From Oscillospiraceae bacterium (lineage in GTDB: Bacteria; Bacillota; Clostridia; Oscillospirales; CAG-272): DNA of 41,329 nucleotides. Position 1 is the first letter of the stretch; every line of letters starts with the position of its first letter. Shown here piece after piece: positions 76 to 35,805 of this stretch. The stretch is taken from NCBI GenBank assembly GCA_015064085.1, contig SVSX01000013.1, forward strand, positions 1 to 41,329, written 5' to 3'. The notes under the pieces were generated by a model. That model ran no database searches. It saw only the letters and a program-made list of their open reading frames with translations, and had not been told where the DNA came from. A program made the position numbers and the translations under genes.

Positions 76-141
76 GCTCATTTTTAGGCAAGGCGAAGCA
101 CGACTGTTAGTTATCTGTTTCAAACTTGAGCCTCCTTTTGT

Positions 142-185
142 TATCTCTGTGTAATTCCATACAGAGAATTTAATTGATCAGTGGA
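142..185 (-). repeat. 44-base tail repeat, locus A copy (divergent)
   Basis: Read on the minus strand, this block matches 41 of 44 positions of the blocks at 17420-17463 and 19081-19124. It encodes LSTDQLNSLYGITQR followed by a stop. Here it lies just downstream of the membrane protein gene and is cut off from any upstream coding body: a stop codon lies a few codons before it in this frame. An AGGAGG-like site follows, as if another gene once began there, but only a short open frame without recognisable content is visible. Confidence 0.8.
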
Positions 186-190
186 TAAAT

Positions 191-730
191 TCAGTCAGCC
201 TGAACCTCGGGGGGGAAGTCATTCTCCGAGGTTACATTCTCTTGTGCGGGAATTTTTGCTTCTGCCTTTTTTGCTTTTCTTCTCTTTATAGTCAAGACTG
301 TGCTGACACATACATCGGCAAATATAATGAGAAGCAAATCAAAAAGGCTACAATAAGTCGTGATGAAAATTAAGAATGAAATCTCCTCACTTTTTGATGG
401 TGGTACAGGACCAATGCTTCCAGGAGTCAGCACAAAACTTAAGAAGCAAACCCATAATGAAAATATTAGTAGATATACAATTGATGCAATCAATATATAT
501 CGCCAAGGAGCGGTAAAATCTTTTCTTTTAATGATAAAATACATTGCTGTTACAATAGAGCGGAAAAAAAGTAATACTAAAAACCCACACAAATATAAAT
601 TTGTATTAGTTAAATCTAAAATGCAATATATAACAATAGCTGCAACAACATACAGCAGATGGAAGAAAAGGATATAGCAAATGTTTTTCACTATTATTTT
701 AAGATAAGTTTCTTTGAATTTTTCTATCAT
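191..730 (-). CDS. four-TM membrane protein, locus A paralogue
   Basis: This 179-residue protein of unknown function has about four hydrophobic membrane segments and a charged Lys/Ala-rich C-terminal tail ending SENDFPPEVQAD. The start is placed at the ATG ending at 730, giving MIEKFKETYL, because an AAAGGAG site precedes it and the paralogue at 17479 starts identically; the upstream ATG at 769 only adds a segment that reads through the ribosome binding site. The first eleven and last roughly 27 residues nearly match the protein at 17479-17985, while the middle is much less alike. Shared family features are YFI(I/V)K, a PWRY motif and a late Asp/Cys-containing helix. It stands alone behind its own sigma-A promoter at 799-827. 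An immunity-type or envelope role is conceivable but unsupported by any recognised domain. Confidence 0.75.
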   Translation of the reverse strand: MIEKFKETYLKIIVKNICYILFFHLLYVVAAIVIYCILDLTNTNLYLCGFLVLLFFRSIVTAMYFIIKRKDFTAPWRYILIASIVYLLIFSLWVCFLSFVLTPGSIGPVPPSKSEEISFLIFITTYCSLFDLLLIIFADVCVSTVLTIKRRKAKKAEAKIPAQENVTSENDFPPEVQAD

Positions 731-798
731 ATCCAATCTCCTTTCTATCTCTGTGTAATATCCTTTCATTTTTGTTTGTGCGCTTATTGCACAGTTTT

Positions 799-827
799 AT
801 TATAGCACATTCTCCTTTTTTGGTCAA
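799..827 (-). promoter_or_regulatory. sigma-A promoter of locus A
   Basis: On the minus strand TTGACC (822-827) and TATAAT (799-804) are separated by 17 bases, with TGTGC just before the -10 box. The promoter and the following leader, which has a small TGTGC/GCGCACA hairpin and AAAAATGAAAGGA, closely match the promoter of locus B at 14652-14680. Confidence 0.85.
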
Positions 828-882
828 GTATAAATTGAAAGGTAGGATTTTGGGGAATAAGAGAGATGATCGTCACACGCTC

Positions 883-4383: not shown

Positions 4384-5346
4384 CTATTCGATCGGAATGA
4401 ATAAAAATATCATCTCGCTGGCTTTTTCGGAGCTAAAGTAGGTGCCGTATGGGGTAGAATCGACCCAAAGACAAAATTCCATTGCGTGTCGACCGTCATA
4501 GAGCCTTGTGAGTCTTACGTATTCTATGGTTGCCGTGTAGTCGATGACGTAGCCTTCAAAGATTTCGGCTATCTTTTCGTCAACGTACTTTTTCATCTCT
4601 AAGATCTCATCAAGAGAGGGCGGCTCTTTGTCTCCGAGATAACCCGAGTTGTTCTTGTAACTGACAATATCACCGTATTTGTTGACCTCTACATCAAAGG
4701 TCTCGAAGGTCTCAACACCGTTTATGCAACGCACATATTTGAAAAGCGTAGTTCCTTTTTCCGTAGTACTATCGTCGGCTTCTAAAAAAGCTTTGCTGTT
4801 TTTGACCTTGGAGGCAAGAAATTCCTCTGCGATCTCGCTTTTGCTAAGATGATCGAGCTCTTGGGCGTTGCTGCTTTCCTTTTTGGCGTAATAGCTGTCA
4901 CCGTAGTAGCATCCTACGTATGCCACTTGATTTGTGATCGTGTTAACACCCGCGGAAAGTGAGAAGTCGTTGTCGGTGTAGTCATATTCGTCGATATTGG
5001 TGTAGAGCGATACTGTGTTTCTGACAGAGCCCGAGTAGCTCAGGGTTTTCTTGATACCGTTGATCTTTATAGACAGTGTCGGAGCTGCGTTTTCGTTTGT
5101 AAAGCTCTCATAGTAGGTGTCGCTGTCGGGGAGATTAGGTACGTCGTCAGGCCTGTTTGGATTGCCATAGGTTGAAATAAGGTAAGGGCGGTATTCAAGA
5201 ACTGTATATTTGGGCTCAAGTGGCTCTGTTGCGGTTGTAGTCGTTTCTGCCGTCGTCGTGACCTCGGGAGGGGTGTCTCCCTCGTTGCAGGAAGCAAGGA
5301 GAGAAAAAATGAGTAATAGGGCTAATACTAAAGATATTTTTTTCAT
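4384..5346 (-). CDS. hypothetical lipoprotein
   Basis: A 320-residue secreted lipoprotein with no family I recognise. The start is the ATG ending at 5346 because it gives a normal lipoprotein signal peptide (MKKISLVLALLLIFSLLASC, lipobox cysteine at 20) and has a GGAAG ribosome binding site; the longer open frame upstream would put a hydrophilic stretch before the signal. A Thr-rich linker (TTTAETTTTATEP) follows the cysteine. The remainder is a soluble extracytoplasmic domain with many Tyr, Asp and Ser residues. It is alone between its own promoter (5402-5430) and terminator. Confidence 0.8.
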   Translation of the reverse strand: MKKISLVLALLLIFSLLASCNEGDTPPEVTTTAETTTTATEPLEPKYTVLEYRPYLISTYGNPNRPDDVPNLPDSDTYYESFTNENAAPTLSIKINGIKKTLSYSGSVRNTVSLYTNIDEYDYTDNDFSLSAGVNTITNQVAYVGCYYGDSYYAKKESSNAQELDHLSKSEIAEEFLASKVKNSKAFLEADDSTTEKGTTLFKYVRCINGVETFETFDVEVNKYGDIVSYKNNSGYLGDKEPPSLDEILEMKKYVDEKIAEIFEGYVIDYTATIEYVRLTRLYDGRHAMEFCLWVDSTPYGTYFSSEKASEMIFLFIPIE

Positions 5347-5401
5347 ATTTTTTCTTCCTTTCATTTTTTGTTTTTTGTGCATTTCTCCTATGCACATCTT
5401 T

Positions 5402-5430
5402 ATTTTAGCATAAAATGGTTTGTTTGTCAA
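5402..5430 (-). promoter_or_regulatory. sigma-A promoter of the lipoprotein gene
   Basis: On the minus strand TTGACA (5425-5430) and TAAAAT (5402-5407) are 17 bases apart, with TATGC before the -10 box. Confidence 0.8.
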
Positions 5431-12825: not shown

Positions 12826-12865
12826 TTGTTTTTCACCTCCCAATGTGAAAATAAATAGTAGGAAT

Positions 12866-12990
12866 AAAAAAATCTTTCCCCAGCAAAGCAAAACTTCGCG
12901 CGAAGAAAGATATAAAGCAAAATTAACTTAAAATCTCTCCTCGGTAGGGAAGCAAAGCTTTTACTGAAACCTACTGTCTTTGGATAACGC
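12866..12990 (-). ncRNA. ribosomal protein L10 leader with attenuator
   Basis: The minus-strand leader contains AAAGACAGTAGGT and, about 20 bases on, CCCTACCGAGGAGA, the conserved pairing elements of the Firmicute L10 leader bound by L10(L12)4. It is followed by a terminator-like hairpin (12866-12911): ATCTTTC pairs with GAAAGAT before seven T residues, with an inner CTTCGCGCGAAG palindrome. This is transcription attenuation of rplJL. Confidence 0.88.
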
Positions 12991-12995
12991 ATAAT

Positions 12996-13024
12996 ATGAT
13001 ATCACATCATTTGCGATTTGTCAA
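12996..13024 (-). promoter_or_regulatory. sigma-A promoter of rplJL
   Basis: On the minus strand TTGACA (13019-13024) and TATCAT (12996-13001) have a 17-base spacer ending TGTGA, just upstream of the L10 leader. It means rplJL is transcribed apart from rplKA, which is not in this window. Confidence 0.88.
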
Positions 13025-14518: not shown

Positions 14519-14818
14519 ATAATACCTCGCAAAAAAACATATATAATATATTATAAACTTAAATTTTGAACACATTGTAAACAAAACCGCGATTTTGAAA
14601 AATATATTAAATAAATGTTTTTTTAACTTTTTATGAAGATTTTATACGGTATTGACAAACAAATCCAACTGTGCTATCATAAAACTGTGCAATGAGCGCA
14701 CAAATAAAAATGAAAGGATTTTTGCCTATGAAAATGTAACTGAAATGAAAGGAATAGTATGGAATTGTTGCAGGTTTTTTCTTAAAAAGGAGAAGTAATT
14801 ACTAAGGGAGGATTCAAG
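14519..14818. other. AT-rich intergenic region with locus B promoter and leader
   Basis: This 300-base region between divergent genes is very AT-rich. It carries the locus B promoter (14652-14680), a leader hairpin (TGTGC/GCGCACA, about 14685-14702), and a long leader with several tiny ATG frames (for example ATGAAAATGTAA near 14728), ending in a GGGAGG site before 14819. No clear reverse promoter was found for the membrane protein gene. Confidence 0.65.
14652..14680 (+). promoter_or_regulatory. sigma-A promoter of locus B
   Basis: TTGACA (14652-14657) and TATCAT (14675-14680) have a 17-base spacer ending TGTGC. From the end of the spacer through AAAAATGAAAGGA the sequence matches the inverted locus A promoter and leader with few differences, so the two promoters are copies. 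Confidence 0.85.
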
Positions 14819-15418
14819 ATGAAAGTCAGTTTATTAGGTGACCTTTTACGGCTTTACCAAAAACCTGTGTTGGGAATATCATTTATTTTGATACTTTCCG
14901 CGGTCTTGTTCTTCTTTGCGTGGAAAAGAAAAAAGACTTCACGTTGCGTTCTTTCAGTGATTTTGGCGGTTATCTTACTTGCGACATATCCATTGGTGAT
15001 ATTTTTCACGTGGGGGTATCATCCGGATATCAAGATCGAAGTTCCAAACAGTGATAAAACCCTTATAGTAAAAGAAAAAACCTACTTGTTTTCCGCCGAA
15101 GCGGAAATATATTATCACAAATACGGCTTTGACATTTACCTCGGTGATATTATATGCGGTGATGACGGCTACAGATTTTTCTCAAAAGGAGATTATACAG
15201 TAAAAGATGTCGGATCGGATGAGGTCCGTATCTCCTGTGGAAAAAAGTATTATTCAAACGACGGTGAGAAGCAATATGTTTATAATGTTGCCAAGGCAGA
15301 TCAAATCGCGCGGGTTTGCTTGATATGCAGTATTTTGGCTGCCATTGCGCTAATATTTGTGTTTGTTTGGCTTTTCAGATCCCGAATCTTTAGAAGATCA
15401 CCTCGCAGAAGAACATAG
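14819..15418 (+). CDS. hypothetical membrane protein
   Basis: A 199-residue protein with two N-terminal hydrophobic spans (about 17-34 and 42-62), an extracytoplasmic soluble domain of about 100 residues rich in Tyr, Lys and Asp, and a third span near 163-186 followed by a very basic tail (RSRIFRRSPRRRT). The domain resembles no family I know. It is the first gene after the locus B promoter. A 30-base stretch within it (14939-14968) recurs exactly downstream of the gene at 15456-15485. Confidence 0.7.
   Translation: MKVSLLGDLLRLYQKPVLGISFILILSAVLFFFAWKRKKTSRCVLSVILAVILLATYPLVIFFTWGYHPDIKIEVPNSDKTLIVKEKTYLFSAEAEIYYHKYGFDIYLGDIICGDDGYRFFSKGDYTVKDVGSDEVRISCGKKYYSNDGEKQYVYNVAKADQIARVCLICSILAAIALIFVFVWLFRSRIFRRSPRRRT
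14939..14968 (+). repeat. 30-base direct repeat, copy 1
   Basis: This stretch inside the first locus B gene is identical to 15456-15485, 517 bases downstream in noncoding DNA, and marks a past duplication. Confidence 0.9.
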
Positions 15419-15455
15419 CGACATCATAATAGTAAAGGATTTTGATCTTGAGGCG

Positions 15456-15485
15456 TCACGTTGCGTTCTTTCAGTGATTTTGGCG
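15456..15485 (+). repeat. 30-base direct repeat, copy 2
   Basis: This noncoding copy is an exact match to 14939-14968. It sits between the first membrane protein gene and the lipoprotein gene and looks like the remnant of a partly deleted second gene copy. Confidence 0.9.
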
Positions 15486-15519
15486 ATAATTTGGAAATTG
15501 TAAAGGAGGATGAACCTTC

Positions 15520-16494
15520 ATGAAAAAAGTACAAACTGTAGTAATTATCCTTTTGGTTTCGACAATTATTTTGTTATCCGCGTGCAGTGCAAAAAAAAGG
15601 CCAGGAAGCATACCTGAAACATCGGAAAATTTCTCACAAGAATTTATGGATTCATTTGTATCAGAATATCATATGTGTTATCCGAATCTGTATTACCTGT
15701 CTATGAAGCCATATGAAGTAAGATACGACAATAGAGTAGGCGGACGTTTCGGCACTATGCCATTTTCAACTTATACTTATCTTATTTCTTCCATTCCCAA
15801 CGTAAATAAAGACCATTTTGTAGCAGTAACGATCTACAGTCCCCACGGAGGCGGTTTTGCTGAACCCTCACAAAACTACGTTTTTCAAAAAGAAGACGCC
15901 CCAACGCCTATAAAGGACTATACGGTAAGCAGCGTATCTGTGGTTGGATATCGGTTTTCTCCCGGTTATTATTTTGGAAGAACCTCTGATTTTGAAACCT
16001 TACAAGACCAGGCAATAAATTATTTTAAATCCTTTTTGGAAAATGAAAATACAAAAATATTTGCGGAATATAAAGCCGAGGACTACCCCGAGCTTATAAG
16101 CGCTTTGCAGGAAGGCTTCACAAATGCGATATCGGCAAACAAGTACGACAGTAATATAAAGCGTATATACACTTGCGACGAAGGAGACACACGAGGAGAA
16201 ACAAATATATATTACTCTTTGCTTTTCAGATTTAACGAAGCCGAAAATCTTGTTTGGCTCGTTTCCCTCTCAAAGGATACGAAAACCGATACGCTCTGCT
16301 ACAGATACACTAATTACAGTAACTATTCCGTAAAAACACTTGAGAACGGAGATCTTTACACGGAAGCTGAGGAGAAGAACTTTTGCGCGCCTATTCCCGA
16401 TGATATAGCCGCAATTTTGAGTTCAAATTGGGCAGGCTTGTATTCTCCCGACTCGCAAGATACCGAAGCAACGACCGTGGAGCAGACCAATTGA
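15520..16494 (+). CDS. hypothetical lipoprotein
   Basis: A 324-residue lipoprotein of unknown function. The signal peptide has a hydrophobic core (VVIILLVSTIILL) and lipobox LSAC with the cysteine at 22. The mature part begins with a Lys/Ser-rich segment, is rich in Tyr, Asn and Ser, and contains a Gly-rich loop (SPHGGGFAEPS). An AAGGAGG site lies upstream. Five bases after its stop begins the 129-base repeat that opens the first cassette, so the cassette array is attached directly to this gene. Confidence 0.75.
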   Translation: MKKVQTVVIILLVSTIILLSACSAKKRPGSIPETSENFSQEFMDSFVSEYHMCYPNLYYLSMKPYEVRYDNRVGGRFGTMPFSTYTYLISSIPNVNKDHFVAVTIYSPHGGGFAEPSQNYVFQKEDAPTPIKDYTVSSVSVVGYRFSPGYYFGRTSDFETLQDQAINYFKSFLENENTKIFAEYKAEDYPELISALQEGFTNAISANKYDSNIKRIYTCDEGDTRGETNIYYSLLFRFNEAENLVWLVSLSKDTKTDTLCYRYTNYSNYSVKTLENGDLYTEAEEKNFCAPIPDDIAAILSSNWAGLYSPDSQDTEATTVEQTN

Positions 16495-16498
16495 ATAT

Positions 16499-16627
16499 CC
16501 CACGGACAGAGGATAAAATCCGCGGTATACGACCACAACAATTCGAATAATCTTAGTTTGAAAGGAGCAGGTCTATGACATCTATTAAAAAGATCCTTGC
16601 GGGAATTGCTACATCATATTTTCCGCT
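16499..16627 (+). repeat. 129-base direct repeat, cassette 5' end, copy 1
   Basis: This copy is nearly identical (about two mismatches) to 17995-18123, with a constant offset of 1496 bases. It starts with a CCCACGGACAGAGG block, includes the ribosome binding site and start codon of the MTSIKKILAG gene, and ends where that gene is cut in this copy. Confidence 0.95.
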
Positions 16628-16640
16628 AAATAACCACTAA
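16575..16640 (+). pseudogene. truncated 5' fragment of the MTSIKKILAG membrane protein gene
   Basis: The ATG and first 18 codons (MTSIKKILAGIATSYFPL) equal the start of the gene at 18071, including its GAAAGGAG ribosome binding site. The frame then runs into an 11-base tandem repeat and stops after three more codons. It could still be translated as a 21-residue peptide, but it reads as the remnant of a gene whose body was replaced. Confidence 0.85.
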
Positions 16641-16669
16641 ATAACCACTAAATAATTACCAAATAATAG
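16626..16669 (+). repeat. 11-base tandem repeat at a cassette junction
   Basis: Four adjacent 11-base units occur: two identical CTAAATAACCA, then CTAAATAATTA and CCAAATAATAG. They lie exactly where the copied gene start ends and new sequence begins, so they mark the recombination or insertion boundary. Confidence 0.88.
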
Positions 16670-16676
16670 GCGAAAA

Positions 16677-17396
16677 ATGAATACAAACACTATTTACAAG
16701 TTATCAAATTCCGATATCGTTCTCAAATTCGAAAAGGATATTCAAATCACAAAGTTAGGTAGTATATTCAATGAAAAAATCTCTCGGGAAATGCAATTTG
16801 AAGTTGTTTCATCAATCTTGTTCCTAAACAAAAATTGTATTTCGATAGACATTATGGAACGAGGGGTAACAGGAGGTGCGCTCCGTTGTGTTGCTGAGCA
16901 CATAGAGAAAAACATTCATAATATGACAAACACCGTCTGCACCACTGTTTGGAGGGCATTATCGGAGGCAATTGAGGAACTGTCGTTACCTAAAATTGAC
17001 TGTGGGAATGGCAGTGAGCCGTTTAAGCTGAGCATCTCTATCTACGACTTTGAAAATAGAATGCGTTTTGCGTATTTTATGGATAACGCTATGTATCTGG
17101 ATCGTTCCGTAAAGAAAAAGTATAGTGATCTCTCTTTAGGCTTAAGGGTGAAGGATGATATAATTTACTATTACCTTATTTTTGAAACCTTGGATGATTT
17201 AAAAAAAGCCGAACAAATATACACGATCGAAGAAATAAATAACTATGTTTGGGATCTATGCAAAGAAGATGACCCATACGGTGTTTTTGAAAAAAAGATA
17301 CCCTTACCGATAGTAGCAACAAGGCAACAGATCATTAACAACGGTTTGGCAATGGGGATTATGAGAAATAATCTTCAATTTTCAACGCTGATATAA
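16677..17396 (+). CDS. hypothetical cytosolic protein, variable core of cassette 1
   Basis: A 239-residue soluble protein of unknown function, with no signal peptide or membrane span. It begins MNTNTIYKLSNSDIVLKFEKD and has alternating strands and helices and a Tyr-rich stretch (DDIIYYYLIFETLDD). The ribosome binding site is weak (ATAGG). It fills the place occupied by the membrane protein core in cassette 2. Its stop codon is directly followed, in another frame, by sequence encoding DIIDGTINILSAEQLNSLY, the conserved cassette tail. So either the true gene once ended with that tail and suffered a frameshift, or the core was inserted next to an old tail. Confidence 0.65.
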   Translation: MNTNTIYKLSNSDIVLKFEKDIQITKLGSIFNEKISREMQFEVVSSILFLNKNCISIDIMERGVTGGALRCVAEHIEKNIHNMTNTVCTTVWRALSEAIEELSLPKIDCGNGSEPFKLSISIYDFENRMRFAYFMDNAMYLDRSVKKKYSDLSLGLRVKDDIIYYYLIFETLDDLKKAEQIYTIEEINNYVWDLCKEDDPYGVFEKKIPLPIVATRQQIINNGLAMGIMRNNLQFSTLI

Positions 17397-17419
17397 TTGA
17401 CGGAACAATTAATATTTTA

Positions 17420-17463
17420 TCCGCCGAGCAATTAAATTCTCTGTATGGAATTACACAGAGATA
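17420..17463 (+). repeat. 44-base tail repeat, cassette 1 copy
   Basis: This copy is identical to 19081-19124 and closely similar to the minus-strand copy at 142-185. In the conserved frame it encodes SAEQLNSLYGITQR and a stop; the frame is open from about 17371 but does not match the frame of the gene ending at 17396. Confidence 0.95.
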
Positions 17464-17478
17464 GAAAGGGGATTGGAT

Positions 17479-17985
17479 ATGATAGAAAAATTCAAAGAAA
17501 CTTATCTTAGAATAATAGTGAAAAACGTTTGCTATGTTGTTTCCGCGTTTTTGCTAACTTACCTTATTATTATGCTTGAGATCGTTTTTCCTTCCATCGA
17601 TATAATTCAACCATTCATTATGGTCTTTTATATCGTTACCATATCAGCGATGTATTTTATCGTTAAAGGTGAAGATTATGCACATCCTTGGCGCTATCTG
17701 GCGGTTACGACAATTGTGTACATTATCGTAGCATTGTTATGGTTTTATTTGATAATATACCCTGAACAAAACAAATCAACATTGGGATTTGGCGATGCTC
17801 TTGCCTTAAATGGTATGTCGTTAGTCAATGTGTATATTTTTGCTATACTTTGGCTTGTTGATATTTGTTTTAGTATTGCTGCGACTGTAAAAAATCTAAA
17901 AGCAAAAAAGGCAGAAGCAAAAATTCCCGCACAAGAGAATGTAACCTCGGAGAATGACTTCCCCCCCGAGGTTCAGGCTGACTGA
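17479..17985 (+). CDS. four-TM membrane protein, cassette 1 paralogue
   Basis: A 168-residue protein with about four membrane spans, paralogous to the locus A protein at 191-730. The ATG at 17479 (MIEKFKETYLRIIVKN) is preferred over a TTG two codons earlier because AAAGGGG lies seven bases before it. Shared features are YFIVKGEDY and HPWRY after the second span and a late WLVDICFSIAATVK helix. The C-terminal roughly 27 residues (KAKKAEAK...SENDFPPEVQAD) match locus A exactly and cassette 2 in part. The C7 run near the stop (encoding PP) could be slippage-prone. Function is unknown. Confidence 0.75.
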   Translation: MIEKFKETYLRIIVKNVCYVVSAFLLTYLIIMLEIVFPSIDIIQPFIMVFYIVTISAMYFIVKGEDYAHPWRYLAVTTIVYIIVALLWFYLIIYPEQNKSTLGFGDALALNGMSLVNVYIFAILWLVDICFSIAATVKNLKAKKAEAKIPAQENVTSENDFPPEVQAD

Positions 17986-17994
17986 ATTTATCTA

Positions 17995-18123
17995 CCCACG
18001 GACAGAGGAGAAAATCCGCGGTATACGACCACAACAATTCGAATAATCTTGGTTTGAAAGGAGCAGGTCTATGACATCTATTAAAAAGATCCTTGCGGGA
18101 ATTGCTACATCATATTTTCCGCT
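17995..18123 (+). repeat. 129-base direct repeat, cassette 5' end, copy 2
   Basis: This copy matches 16499-16627 and opens the second cassette. Here the gene start it contains is followed by a full-length coding body. The hairpin that terminates transcription at 20022 is represented only by its left arm in both 5' copies, so transcription can run on through the array. Confidence 0.95.
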
Positions 18124-19125
18124 TTTGATCTTATGTGTACTGCTGCAAAATATGATTGGTATCTCTTCGGGCATACCGTTTATAGCAGAATTACTTGGCG
18201 TGCTGATGATATCTTTTCCAACGTATCTTGCGTCTGTCGGCATTGCGATTATATTGATCAGATTTATTAATAAAGAATTGAGATCAGCTATTGAGTTTAT
18301 ACTTCATATATTGCTGATTATTATTCTTGTTATTTCAATTGTTTTAACATTTGTAGATTTTGCGGATATGATCTTTTGTATCTATGGACTGATTTTGACC
18401 GCGATAGTTATATTTACGGTTGATTTTATAATTTATAAACGCAAATGTGAGATATCGAGCTTGTTTTCGGCAAAATCATTCTATATAACCGTTTTGGTAT
18501 CCGTTCTCGTCGGTTGCTTGATAATTTGCTCGGTTATAATGATTGGCAACGCAAAAAATAAATCTATTGATAATGATGATTCAAGAGCAATATCAGCGAT
18601 AGAATACAATATTGAATCACAATATAACCTTGATTCTTTTGATCTGACAAGAATAAGCATATCAAGCTCGGAAAAGAAATATCAAATTTACGTTGTCGGT
18701 GTTTATATTAACGATAAAGGATATTATGAAGAATGGGATACCTCATACGATATAACAAACGAGGAATATGATATTCTTTATGAAGTAAATAACAGCAACA
18801 CTGTTTACAATTCGTATGCAACAAGTAGTCACCCCACGATATATACGGACTTTTCGGCAGAAGCATATTTAATATTGAATAAAAAAACAACTGTGCGGTA
18901 ACCGAACATAGTGCTACTATAGGAGGAACGGCACCGTCTGCAAAAATATACTATAAGACAAACTCAAACACAACAACTGCTGACCATACAGGAATGATTA
19001 AAGGCGAATGTGATAGCGGAACCGATTATACAACTTTAAATTTTATTACAGCCATAATCGATGAAACTATTGGTGGTCTGTCCGCCGAGCAATTAAATTC
19101 TCTGTATGGAATTACACAGAGATAA
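18071..19125 (+). pseudogene. membrane protein with apparent frameshift at an A7 run (core of cassette 2)
   Basis: The first frame (18071-18901) gives 276 residues: about five hydrophobic spans to residue 165, then an outside domain (IDNDDSRAISAIEYNIESQY...). It runs into a stop soon after seven A residues at 18881-18887. Shifting to the -1 frame at that run opens a continuation from 18886 to 19125 that adds NNCAVTEHSATIGGTAPSAK, a Gly/Thr-rich stretch, and the conserved end LSAEQLNSLYGITQR. One missing A would explain this exactly. Alternatives are RNA polymerase slippage on the A-run, programmed frameshifting, a sequencing error, or reversible phase variation. The start is supported by GAAAGGAG. 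Function is unknown. Confidence 0.72.
19081..19124 (+). repeat. 44-base tail repeat, cassette 2 copy
   Basis: This copy is identical to 17420-17463. It forms the end of the continued reading frame described for 18071-19125 and lies just before the ribosome binding site of the next membrane protein gene. Confidence 0.95.
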
Positions 19126-19143
19126 CGACAGGAGGTTTTATTT

Positions 19144-20007
19144 ATGCAAAAAAGCAATTATTTGAGAATTATTTTCAAAAAAATTTTGTTGCTATTTTCC
19201 TTTGAGTTAGTTTTAATGTTACTTGGTTTTGTTCATAATACGGATTTCTTTCTAAATCTTATTTTTGTGACAGGTATTGTAGTCCTCTTTTCAACCTTGC
19301 TGGTTTTTTTAAATAGAAAAGAGAAACAAGGTCGGTGGATAGGCACAATTGCTTTGGTAATTCTGATACCTCTCTTTGCGATCTTCTTTAGATGGATAAA
19401 TCTTGAAGTGTTGGATATAAAAAACGACTATATTGAAGATATTTTTGAGCCTTCGTTGCACGTGATTATCCTTATCTGTTTCTTGCTGATCGATGTTTTG
19501 GTAAATATTTTTAATACCTTGAAAATTAAAGAAAACGGAGGGCTTAACGGAAATAGATATATCAGAATAATAATAAAAAATCTATCCTTTACAGCTTCAT
19601 ATTTGTTGATATCTTTCCTTTTTTCGTATTTGGTTTATGAAAAAGTTATCCATGAAGATTATCTGTTCGGCTTCTTTGCGATAATGGTATGCATATATAC
19701 CCCCGCGTATTTCATCGTAAAAGGGAACGACTATGACACCCCGTGGAGATACATCGGAATTGGAGTCATCATTTCAGCAATTTTAAACGCAATAGTTCAC
19801 TTGGCTTTAATTATGGAGTTTGGAGATAGTTGGGATGGTATAGAGTTTTATATTCTAGCTTGGGTTGCTATGTCGTTCTTTGGTTTTCTTTTCCTGTTGG
19901 ATTGCTGTGTCAGTGCTATTCACACATTCAAAGAAAAAAGAAAAAAAGCAGTTAAGTTGAGAAGCCCTTCGGAAAATGACTTCCCCCACGAGGTTCAGGC
20001 TGACTGA
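19144..20007 (+). CDS. duplicated-domain membrane protein, cassette 2 paralogue
   Basis: A 287-residue protein with about eight membrane spans, apparently an internal tandem duplication of the four-TM domain seen at 191-730 and 17479-17985. The N-half starts NYLRIIFKKILLLFS and the C-half RYIRIIIKNLSFTAS; each half ends with a late LLIDVLVNIFNTLKIKE or LLDCCVSAIHTFKEKRKK helix. Only the C-half keeps YFIVKGNDYDTPWRY. The final residues (SENDFPHEVQAD) match the other paralogues. AGGAGG precedes the start. It closes the second cassette and is followed by an intact terminator. Confidence 0.75.
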   Translation: MQKSNYLRIIFKKILLLFSFELVLMLLGFVHNTDFFLNLIFVTGIVVLFSTLLVFLNRKEKQGRWIGTIALVILIPLFAIFFRWINLEVLDIKNDYIEDIFEPSLHVIILICFLLIDVLVNIFNTLKIKENGGLNGNRYIRIIIKNLSFTASYLLISFLFSYLVYEKVIHEDYLFGFFAIMVCIYTPAYFIVKGNDYDTPWRYIGIGVIISAILNAIVHLALIMEFGDSWDGIEFYILAWVAMSFFGFLFLLDCCVSAIHTFKEKRKKAVKLRSPSENDFPHEVQAD

Positions 20008-20021
20008 ATTTATCTACCCAC

Positions 20022-20054
20022 GGACAGAGGATAAAATCCTCTGTCCGTTTTTAT
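20022..20054 (+). terminator. rho-independent terminator closing locus B
   Basis: ACGGACAGAGGA pairs perfectly with TCCTCTGTCCGT around a TAAAA loop and is followed by T residues. The left arm also begins both 129-base cassette repeats, where the right arm is missing. Confidence 0.93.
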
Positions 20055-20165: not shown

Positions 20166-20456
20166 ATGGCAGAAGATAAAAAGACGGTTGGAGGCAAGTA
20201 TCTTGAGTATAAGGGAAAGCCTCTTGTAAGACAAGGCGACACTATTTGCTATGGCGATATGGACGACAAATATATTCTCGTGCTTGAGATATTCTCATAT
20301 AAAAAGAGCGCGGGAGGAACAGACGTGCCCGACGATATCTTTATTCAGGTGATCAATCCCAAGGATTCGACGGACATAAAGAAGCAGGGACAGAAGAAGG
20401 GACTTTACGACGCTCTTGATATCGGACTCGTATGGCTTGAGCGCGCCTTGATGTAA
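20166..20456 (+). CDS. small conserved hypothetical protein
   Basis: A 96-residue soluble protein with a strong AGGAGG site. It starts MAEDKKTVGGKYLEYKGKPLVRQGDTICYG and ends LYDALDIGLVWLERALM, and is predicted mainly beta with a C-terminal helix. I recall similar short proteins only as unnamed Clostridial proteins and assign no function. The esterase lipoprotein gene follows after 20 bases, so they are probably cotranscribed. Confidence 0.75.
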   Translation: MAEDKKTVGGKYLEYKGKPLVRQGDTICYGDMDDKYILVLEIFSYKKSAGGTDVPDDIFIQVINPKDSTDIKKQGQKKGLYDALDIGLVWLERALM

Positions 20457-20476: not shown

Positions 20477-21859
20477 ATGAAGACTGTCAGGCTGAAACGG
20501 ATATTTTCGCTGTCGCTTGTATTCGCTATGCTGCTTGCGGGGGCGTCCTGCTCACGGAAGGGAGACGAGCCTCTCGGAGAGCCGAGTTCGCAAACGACTG
20601 CCGCCGAGGCGACCACCTCGGCAACCACCACCGCCGCGACTACGGCGGCAACCACCGTGCCGAAGCGCGATCCTGTGACTCTCGGTGTGATAGAGAACGG
20701 AAGGTGCGAATTTTCCGTGCTGTGTAATTTCAACAGCAGGACGACCAAGGCGGAGGCAGAGGAGCTTGTAAAGCGGCTCAAAAATGAGTGCCGCCTCGAG
20801 CTTACTCTTAAGGATATCAACACAGAGGCTAATCTTGCGGGTAAGACACTGATAGTCGGAGGAGGCACAGAGGCGGCGGACAAGGTCGTTGAAAGCCTCA
20901 AGGGCTATAACGATTTCGCGGTGTCTGTTGAGAAGGACAGCCTTATCCTTGCGGCAACCACCGACGTGGCGTATAACTACCTCTTTGATTACATTATAAA
21001 TGAGTTCTTCTCAAAAACAAAAAACGGTAAGCTTGTGCTCACCGACGAGGATAGCATACTTTACAGCTCCTCGCAGCTTTACGGAAAGACCTATCCCGAG
21101 TATTGGAGGGAGATAAACGGAAAGTGTGAGCCCACCGCGATGCTCGAGCTCTTTGAGGATCACTACACCGTAGGCACACCCAATCTTCCTATGAAATACA
21201 GGCTTTACGTTCCCTTTGACTATGATCCCGCAAAGGAGTATCCATTTGTGCTCTTCCTTCACGGGGCGGGTCACCGCGGATACGACAACGCCGAAACGGT
21301 AAAGGGAATTGTCTATAATCTTTTCAACCATTCCGACCCGAAGGTCGATGATATGATCGTTCTTGTTCCTCAGTGTCCAAATGGATACCAGTGGGTAGAT
21401 TATCCTTGGTCAAACGGCAACTACAGCACGAACGCGGTAGCCGAGTCTGCCGCGATGAAGACACTCCTGGAGCTTATCGGCAAGATAGACGGGGAATTTT
21501 CCATTGATGACTCACGCAGATACGTTTTCGGTCTTTCTATGGGCGGATACGGAACGTGGGATATTATAACGAGACATCCTGAGATGTTCACGGCGGCGGT
21601 CGCCCTTTGCGGCGGAGGAGATACCGCAAAAGCCGCTGTCAAGCTCAAGGATATGCCTATATGGGCATTCCACGCGGCTGACGACACGACGGTGTCGGTG
21701 GAGAATACCCGAGCTCTTGTGAAGGCAATAACCGACGCGGGCGGAACAAAGGTGAAATACACCGAGTACGCGGCGTCCTTGGGGTACGGTCACGGCATCG
21801 GAACGCTGACGGCAAGAGACGAGACTGTGTTCAGCTGGCTCTTTTCGCAAACTAAATAA
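20477..21859 (+). CDS. secreted alpha/beta-hydrolase lipoprotein (esterase/peptidase-like)
   Basis: A 460-residue lipoprotein. The signal peptide ends at the lipobox cysteine at 25 (LAGASC) and is followed by a Thr/Ala-rich linker of about 30 residues. A beta-rich N-terminal region of about 150 residues precedes an alpha/beta-hydrolase domain. Visible catalytic elements are the oxyanion-side FLHGAGHRG, the nucleophile elbow GLSMGGYGTWD, an acid candidate in AFHAADDTTVS, and the histidine near YGHGIG. It resembles polymer-degrading carboxylesterases or feruloyl-type esterases anchored outside the cell, but a prolyl-oligopeptidase-type peptidase is also possible. Confidence 0.85.
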   Translation: MKTVRLKRIFSLSLVFAMLLAGASCSRKGDEPLGEPSSQTTAAEATTSATTTAATTAATTVPKRDPVTLGVIENGRCEFSVLCNFNSRTTKAEAEELVKRLKNECRLELTLKDINTEANLAGKTLIVGGGTEAADKVVESLKGYNDFAVSVEKDSLILAATTDVAYNYLFDYIINEFFSKTKNGKLVLTDEDSILYSSSQLYGKTYPEYWREINGKCEPTAMLELFEDHYTVGTPNLPMKYRLYVPFDYDPAKEYPFVLFLHGAGHRGYDNAETVKGIVYNLFNHSDPKVDDMIVLVPQCPNGYQWVDYPWSNGNYSTNAVAESAAMKTLLELIGKIDGEFSIDDSRRYVFGLSMGGYGTWDIITRHPEMFTAAVALCGGGDTAKAAVKLKDMPIWAFHAADDTTVSVENTRALVKAITDAGGTKVKYTEYAASLGYGHGIGTLTARDETVFSWLFSQTK

Positions 21860-35659: not shown

Positions 35660-35805
35660 TCATAGGCTTAAGGAGAAAGAAGGACACCGACCTTACGCCG
35701 TATGAAGCGGGATGCAGGATACAAACCGCAAGCGAAAGCTTTTCGTCTTGGCGGCAACTCCCCGTCCGTCAAGCACTTCACGCCTGTATCCTTACTCTTC
35801 TACAC
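35660..35805 (-). promoter_or_regulatory. tetrahydrofolate (THF) riboswitch, class I
   Basis: The aptamer is at about 35700-35805 on the minus strand. Stem P1 pairs GUGU-A-GAAG (35797-35805) with CUUCAUAC (35700-35707). P2 pairs GGAUACAGGCG with the GCGGUUUGUAUCC segment, followed by UGCAUCC as in the family consensus; GUGAAGUGC and GGAGUUGCCGCC occupy the expected joining and loop positions. A following hairpin (GGCGUAAGG with CCUUAAGCC) may be the expression platform and lies upstream of the AAGGAGG site. THF binding is expected to lower folT-folC expression. Confidence 0.88.

Follow-up and report, generated by a model that had tools for sequence, protein, structure and literature searches.

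Tandem gene units in an Oscillospiraceae genome: a very probably recombination-built array

The draft genome of an Oscillospiraceae bacterium (NCBI GenBank assembly GCA_015064085.1; 2.02 Mb, 89 contigs, 82% complete) carries on contig SVSX01000013.1 (C23 in the following) a short row of genes that, judged by its sequence, was very probably built by recombination. The window analysed here is this contig at its full length of 41,329 nucleotides. The row (14652–20048) contains P0005, the lipoprotein P0006, and two tandem units (16499–17994 and 17995–20054), each with a gene 1 and a gene 2 or their remains. It is low in G+C (34–40%, compared to 42–53% in the rest of the window, the first kilobase excepted) and is flanked largely by housekeeping genes. 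A family scan of 20 open reading frames (ORFs) outside the array, between 966 and 26953, left 3 of them without a family. On one side it identified genes for ribosomal L7/L12, an HD protein and creatininase, and on the other an esterase (at 20477, with a 96-aa gene before it at 20166), cytidine deaminase and a phosphorylase. A third copy, which the initial annotation of this DNA overlooked, lies on the minus strand at 131–829. The features are:

14618–14734, plus strand: promoter and leader block, with TTGACA at 14652, a 17-nt spacer, TATCAT ending at 14680, and TG in front
14819–15418, plus strand: P0005, a 199-aa membrane-anchored protein with a domain of the IKEW..GSGAEIYY type
15520–16494, plus strand: P0006, a 324-aa lipoprotein (lipobox by eye)
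16499–16627, plus strand: start block, copy 1, with terminator left arm and loop (16501–16521), CCGCGG, ribosome site and the first gene-1 codons
16575–16640, plus strand: 21-codon stub of the original gene 1 of unit 1 (MTSIKKILAGIATSYFPLNNH, then stop)
16677–17396, plus strand: P0001, a 239-aa soluble protein in place of the gene-1 core
17390–17464, plus strand: surviving gene-1 3′ tail (...IIDGTINILSAEQLNSLYGITQR, then stop), with the exact 44-nt repeat at 17420–17463
17479–17985, plus strand: gene 2 of unit 1 (P0002, a 168-aa polytopic membrane protein)
17947–18022, plus strand: gene-2 end block running into a broken terminator (76-nt repeat)
17995–18123, plus strand: start block, copy 2 (129-nt repeat)
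18071–18901, plus strand: gene 1 of unit 2, first piece (P0003, a 276-aa ORF, polytopic)
18882–19125, plus strand: second piece of the unit 2 gene 1, shifted in frame relative to the first, with LSAEQLNSLYGITQR and a stop at its end and the exact 44-nt repeat at 19081–19124
19144–20007, plus strand: gene 2 of unit 2 (P0004, 287 aa), whose C-terminal half aligns with gene 2
19969–20044, plus strand: end block, last copy (76-nt repeat)
20020–20048, plus strand: intact intrinsic terminator (−22.2 kcal/mol, z −7.05; 13 pairs and a T run)
781–829, minus strand: promoter of the third, putatively deleted copy
191–730, minus strand: third-copy gene 2 (P0007, with the ATG at 730 taken as start), close behind the promoter leader
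131–185, minus strand: gene-1 tail of the third copy, joined to the end of its gene 2

The two units are alike at their ends. Their start blocks (16499–16627 and 17995–18123) are 98% identical over 129 nt. A second pair of blocks (17373–17463 and 19034–19124) is 79% identical over 91 nt, and the final 44 nt of this pair are the same to the letter; together with the bases before them, they form the coding 3′ end (...LSAEQLNSLYGITQR, then stop) of the original first gene in both units. The end blocks (17947–18022 and 19969–20044), which cover the gene end and the intergenic region, are 93% identical over 76 nt. An exact word of at least 60 nt is common to both units, compared to a maximum of 13 nt in 20 shuffled pairs, and the likeness of the units is thus far above chance. 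The initial annotation had described these three shared parts correctly, along with the lengths of three encoded proteins (239, 168 and 287 aa) and the 3′ ends SENDFPPEVQAD and SENDFPHEVQAD.

Gene 2 is present in three copies in the window, namely in unit 1, in the C-terminal half of P0004, and at 191–730 on the minus strand. The shared ends of these copies display 92–100% DNA identity, whereas the cores display 47–49%. Between unit 1 and the third copy, 56 of 60 nt agree in the first 20 alignment columns and 69 of 69 nt in the last 23, compared to 144 of 303 nt in columns 21–140, with a transition (40 of 60 nt) in columns 141–160. Unit 1 and unit 2 agree at 34 of 36 nt in the last 14 columns and at 201 of 414 nt in columns 1–160; for unit 2 and the third copy the values are 36 of 39 nt in the last 19 columns and 202 of 429 nt before those. 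Only unit 1 and the third copy have the 5′ end of gene 2 in common; unit 1 and unit 2 agree there at 22 of 60 nt. Where residues are conserved at the shared ends, their codons are identical in 16 of 16 and 23 of 23 cases for unit 1 and the third copy, in 10 of 11 for the two units, and in 10 of 12 for unit 2 and the third copy. Constraint on the protein alone therefore does not explain the identity of the ends.

The third copy is rearranged. Behind its promoter leader come the final bases of gene 1 and then gene 2, whose end passes at a short TTTATC match into another gene-1 tail; deletions would leave such an arrangement. P0004 appears to be composite as well: its N-terminal half also resembles gene 2 (hhalign probability 82.7 against the gene-2 profile; 25.5% identity over 98 aa by blastp), and P0004 is therefore probably a fusion of two gene-2 copies.

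Gene 1 has fared differently in the two units. In unit 1, P0001 with its own start and stop stands between the stub and the tail of gene 1, and it is non-homologous to the gene that it replaced. A paralogue of P0001 on contig C43 of the same genome (33% identical) stands alone with its own promoter and terminator. Position between gene-1 remnants and this solitary relative make P0001 look like a newcomer in a replaced gene. In unit 2, gene 1 begins MTSIKKILAGIATSYFPLLI... and shifts frame near an A7 tract at 18881–18887; the assembled gene is broken, unless slippage restores the frame or the tract contains a sequencing error. No relative of P0003 was seen, other genomes not having been searched with it; within a set of 24 proteins it matched a 268-aa membrane protein of genome G099 (22.6% over 164 aa, E 6.5e-4), which was judged too weak. 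The initial annotation had each unit pair a variable protein with a multi-membrane-segment protein. This holds in part only: in unit 1 the soluble gene takes the place of gene 1, and in unit 2 gene 1 is broken.

The joints between the genes carry a further mark. The terminator ACGGACAGAGGATAAAATCCTCTGTCCGT is complete within the row at 20020–20048 alone, with weaker terminator-like hairpins inside genes, and the 129-nt start block opens with the left arm of the same terminator. At the joint of P0006 with unit 1 and at that of unit 1 with unit 2, the left arm and loop are followed by CCGCGGTATACGACC... where the right arm should stand. Folding at both joints falls to −6.2 kcal/mol, no better than in shuffled sequence. 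The breakpoint is the same at both, which makes a single origin of the joint, later copied together with a unit, probable. The row as a whole lies between a single strong promoter match (14652) and the only intact terminator of this type; as the right arm is replaced at both internal joints, the row is readable as one operon. Hairpins within the gene-1 tail and the gene-2 end block were also considered as mobile palindromes and dropped; by eye, the gene-2 hairpin is less perfect in unit 2.

The promoter at 14652 is the best match of the stretch, with 11 of 12 positions (42 matches found, 23.6 expected). The block of promoter and leader (117 nt) is 96% identical to a locus on contig C57, where it precedes ORFs of 150, 93 and 300 aa that are not clearly similar to any array protein (best match at E 0.033); related copies are found twice on C43 and at the left end of the window. 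In the own genome the promoter yields 17 matches at E ≤1, one of which is the query itself. Of the 17, 8 reach E ≤1.5e-4, and some precede a lipoprotein family with a constant leader. This family is an observation in its own right. It has at least 7 genes in the own genome with a constant promoter, the leader MKKISLVLALLLIFSLLASCNEGDTPPE or one near to it, a Thr-rich linker and differing C-terminal parts, and represents a further example of a constant start with a variable core. Its members are found in the window at 4384–5430 on the minus strand, at stretch L093 (1966–2916, 2974–3543 and 3500–4060), and at L034, L036 and L037.

The own genome repeats 4 of the 5 gene families of the row: relatives of P0001 and P0006 are located on C43, and relatives of P0005 and gene 2 on C27, with the P0005 paralogue at the end of that contig. 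Allowing 2 mismatches at most, a search for the left arm and loop of the terminator yielded 6 matches in the genome (3 on C23, 2 on C43 and 1 on C27) and 0 in a reversed control. All 6 are at the row or beside relatives of its genes.

Based on this dataset, we hypothesize that the row is a variable accessory-gene operon, which would have been built up and given new cores by homologous recombination at short end blocks that its parts share; we give this reading a probability of roughly 60%. A unit would have been duplicated through its ends, and its cores would later have been replaced from paralogues or from donor DNA, with the end blocks providing the homology. If so, the number and content of units should differ between strains. 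The encoded proteins probably face the envelope or are protective; the likeliest role of P0001, and of the pair of P0005 and a lipoprotein, may be immunity to the toxins of competitors. The shuffling of cores via the ends, already suggested in the initial annotation, is well supported by identity of DNA and codons at the ends only, by the rearranged third copy, and by a 177-nt block of unit end plus unit start (17947–18123) that was found in 0 of 58 relatives, all of other species. The counter-case named in the initial annotation, identical gene order and identical cores in every relative, was not encountered.

Profile searches among 295 genomes of the family, the own genome included, found the P0001 family in 3, the P0005 family in 17, the P0006 family in 9, and the gene-2 family in 4 genomes. 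The three gene-2 matches outside the own genome (G260, G105 and G112; E 1e-5 to 9e-4) are doubtful and are not counted as gene 2; those in G260 and G112 are discounted because the open frames there are short Cys-rich proteins. P0005 and a gene-2-like protein adjoin each other on C27 and in genome G248 (the latter found by eye, not by profile), and the two thus look like partners. A search of genome contigs with the P0001 family yielded 5 loci, 4 of which are, judged by length and place, the contigs of G099 and G120 and 1 of which is new (L063); the same search with P0002 gave no match. Viral contigs contain no relative of P0002, the P0001 family or gene 2 and 0 exact matches of the terminator pattern, and plasmids contain no relative of P0001. 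An origin from phage or plasmid was rejected on account of these missing relatives.

The mode of building seems to recur with different blocks in other genera. The rows of G099 that hold P0001 relatives also contain lipoproteins (by eye), polytopic proteins and fragments of a RicinB-bearing protein, and a 56-nt hairpin block is found there three times at 100, 89 and 66% identity. In G206 a 40-nt start block (100, 98 and 65%) precedes three genes, one of them P0005-like. A stretch of G204 (L140, 900–6300) comprises ten small ORFs, mostly lipoprotein-like or with a membrane segment, with partial repeats and a P0006-like gene as the last. The gene gpmI (label by eye) adjoins the P0001 relative of G120, which lies at a contig end (L059), as well as the P0005-like and gene-2-like genes of G248 (L133); this shared neighbourhood is perhaps an insertion hotspot, or a coincidence.

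The seven array proteins gave only matches below the cut-offs against Pfam and NCBIfam, in line with the initial annotation, which had recognised no known domain. Of the 8 Pfam families matched by the P0001 family, none was found in more than 1 of the 7 members (best E 0.0042). For the P0005 family, weak matches were obtained to Wzy_C (2 of 12 members, best 5.5e-5), DUF5412 (1 of 12, 0.045) and, in NCBIfam, RodA (1 of 12, 9e-4), all of which were taken as membrane-segment or chance matches. Searches of Protein Data Bank (PDB) sequences and of PADLOC gave no match. The predicted fold of P0001 (mean pLDDT 80) has no counterpart at E ≤0.001 among PDB and viral structures; hits to polymerase-beta and thymidylate-synthase folds are noise (TM ~0.2 or less). 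The P0001 family thus matches no known immunity family or fold in profile, PADLOC, PDB and fold searches.

The initial annotation compared the layout to toxin/immunity or adhesin loci. Nothing was found in favour of the latter. For the former, relatives of array genes do adjoin toxin-type proteins in G099, G126 and G322, but no toxin was recognised among the window ORFs scanned, and the own assembly has no Rhs core. At L058 in G099, a P0001 relative comes after a RicinB-bearing protein encoded on its own strand, the two being separated by a transposase-like fragment (label by eye); at L056 another is interleaved with pieces of that protein. In the same genome, one RicinB-bearing end (33 of 33 residues) runs into different sequence at L056 (2701–3120) and L058 (1937–3463). 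Further rows of G099 (L082, L083, L085 and L086) resemble displaced cassettes of toxin and immunity genes: every Rhs tail in them carries a C-terminal tip of its own, and small genes come next. Rhs cores number 9 in G099 and 1 in G120, and any Rhs core is found in 105 of the 295 genomes. Genomes with Rhs account for 5 of 9 P0006-family and 2 of 3 P0001-family genomes, which are too few to judge.

Relatives of P0005 have neighbours of another type. In G126 (L135) a 988-aa CBM96/Big_2 protein, a lipoprotein and a P0005 relative follow in this order on one strand; the large protein ends ...TVIHELGHLYGTPDHYE..., a HELGHLYGTPDH tip of zinc-protease type, and the lipoprotein starts no more than about 25 nt from its stop. 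In G322 (L126) a 119-aa ORF with HEFGHFYGAEDHYD precedes a lipoprotein and a P0005 relative, and this ORF resembles the G126 tip (31% over 81 aa, E 3.6e-10). The motif HExxHxxGxx[HD] of both tips is putatively that of a zinc protease. It occurs twice in 11 P0005 stretches and 0 times in 7 P0006, 5 P0001 and 12 other stretches. Such a tip thus lies upstream of a P0005 relative, with a lipoprotein between, at 2 of 11 loci, and the window locus is without it. In G164 (L129) a P0005 relative is located upstream of a CBM96/RicinB/Big_2 protein, which is cut by the contig end. The order of a tip HE[LF]GHxYGxxDHY, a lipoprotein and a P0005 relative is thus the same in two genera (L135, 5259–9512, and L126, 5810–7398, both minus strand) and represents a candidate effector-antidote set.

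Several points weigh against the proposed operon and the protective role of its products. Gain or loss of units was not observed, with one genome per species, and the broken first gene of unit 2 means that part of the row may be decaying. Profile matches of the array families are only weak and inconsistent, and no product is identified by profile or fold. Neither the array nor the 20 other window ORFs scanned showed a recognisable toxin domain, and the own assembly, at 82% completeness, has no Rhs core; T7SS/LXG and CBM96/Big_2 were not searched genome-wide. Six-frame translations of 6 own-genome stretches (84,179 bases) are free of the zinc-protease motif. The P0005 family is not enriched in genomes with Rhs (4 of 17, compared to 105 of 295, the same 295 being assumed). 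At the other 8 of the 11 P0005 loci (L126–L136, most small ORFs by eye) no toxin was recognised; the neighbours are lipoproteins, small membrane proteins, and housekeeping or enzyme genes. Finally, the lipoproteins of G126 and G322 are weakly alike (34% over 53 aa), and neither matches P0006 at E 0.01. An immunity role for at least one array product nevertheless comes close to an even chance in our estimation, whereas such a role for all of them is rather unlikely.

Among the alternatives, an orphan immunity array proper is a possible one, which we regard with some reserve. All genes would then protect against toxins of competitors and would have been kept after loss of the toxin, the soluble protein guarding the cytosol, the polytopic proteins the membrane, and the lipoproteins the outside. 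The mix of soluble, membrane and lipoproteins with recombination at end blocks does match the EsaG, TsaI and TipC arrays (Garrett et al., 2022; PMC9484751), and the toxin-type neighbours of the P0001 family (G099) and the P0005 family (G126, G322 and G164), as well as an assembly without an Rhs core, would fit. However, the partnership of P0005 and gene 2 recurs on C27 and in G248 without a recognised toxin, the P0005 family lacks the association with Rhs just mentioned, and that source itself reports little recombination among tsaI genes.

Ordinary vertical tandem duplication, by which one ancestral unit would have kept constrained ends while its cores diverged fast, is improbable. The equal breakpoints at both joints would speak for it, in that the joint itself was probably duplicated. 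However, identity of codons and of non-coding DNA at the ends beside cores of 47–49% is hard to obtain without exchange, and the 239-aa gene is non-homologous to the gene that it replaced. Slightly less probable still is an assembly artefact that joined repeats of different loci or strains. The genome is an incomplete draft in many contigs, and contigs break at such loci, as at the start of C23 and the end of C27, while three contigs of G099 are short there; this is expected from repeats, and the diversity of such loci is probably undercounted for the same reason. The blocks are used consistently, however, at the two loci of the window and on C43, C27 and C57, the joints and most ORFs are clean, and the main row lies inside a 41-kb contig with largely housekeeping flanks. 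Hardly credible is a site-specific cassette system of the integron type with the hairpin as recombination site, since the hairpin, although conserved at unit ends with changing cores, scores as a terminator with a T run and has no exact match in viral contigs, identity reaches beyond it, and no integrase or recombinase is among the 20 window ORFs scanned, the rest of the genome not having been searched.

We thus return to the re-cored accessory operon, for which a more specific mechanism may be sketched, doubtful as it is in all its parts together. Half terminators and start blocks with a ribosome site could act as shared sockets, by which this gut-type Clostridia lineage would swap even unrelated genes into an operon through plain homologous recombination. 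This would yield a strain-specific protective repertoire in envelope and cytosol, including antidotes to secreted effectors of the zinc-protease type, without an integrase or a neighbouring toxin.

Elsewhere in the window, Rfam lists a ribosomal L10 leader at 12858–13001 and a THF riboswitch at 35703–35801, both on the minus strand.

Immunity arrays of Gram-positive bacteria offer the nearest comparison. According to Garrett et al. (2022; PMC9484751), esaG of Staphylococcus aureus has three conserved blocks, one of them over the gene end and the downstream intergenic region, and tipC of streptococci has conserved blocks at both ends; homologous recombination reassorts the cores and adds or removes copies, with little of it for the polytopic tsaI. 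Repetitive sequence was suspected there of confounding an assembly. The row described here resembles these arrays in its tandem paralogues, conserved blocks, divergent cores, and soluble next to extracellular membrane-anchored members, and a block over gene end and intergenic region is present as well (17947–18022 and 19969–20044). In contrast to those arrays, unrelated families are mixed here, a non-homologous gene sits inside the remains of another, and the joint is a half terminator; moreover, the feature of a toxin beside the array fails, with neither a toxin nor a secretion system found in the neighbourhood of this row.

The lpl cluster of S. aureus, as described in the same paper (PMC9484751), consists of tandem lipoproteins with a shared block of ~130 nt and recombination over two adjacent genes. 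It is alike in these respects, but its shared block is central in each gene, while the blocks here are at the ends and involve several families. Immunity arrays of the type VI secretion system (T6SS) of Vibrio cholerae (Kirchberger et al., 2017; PMC5361080) lie beside T6SS clusters of a Gram-negative species, whereas no secretion cluster was seen here.

Acquired interbacterial defence or orphan immunity islands are alike in that gut bacteria gather orphan protective genes. They act against the T6SS and are reportedly linked to recombinases; neither a T6SS nor a link to a recombinase was seen here. Top-ranked titles and abstract openings describe no array of the kind reported here in gut Clostridia, subscription papers being mostly outside their scope.

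In our view the array is real and interesting, but not categorically new. If our interpretation is true, homology-block recombination would extend from immunity rows of one family to unrelated families that are exchanged via the same ends. It would also draw attention to four unnamed protein families (P0001, P0005, P0006 and gene 2), and to the candidate effector-antidote order of zinc-protease-type tip, lipoprotein and P0005 relative. By analogy, the homology-block recombination of esaG and tipC represents the closest known process, and the row would appear to work like those arrays.

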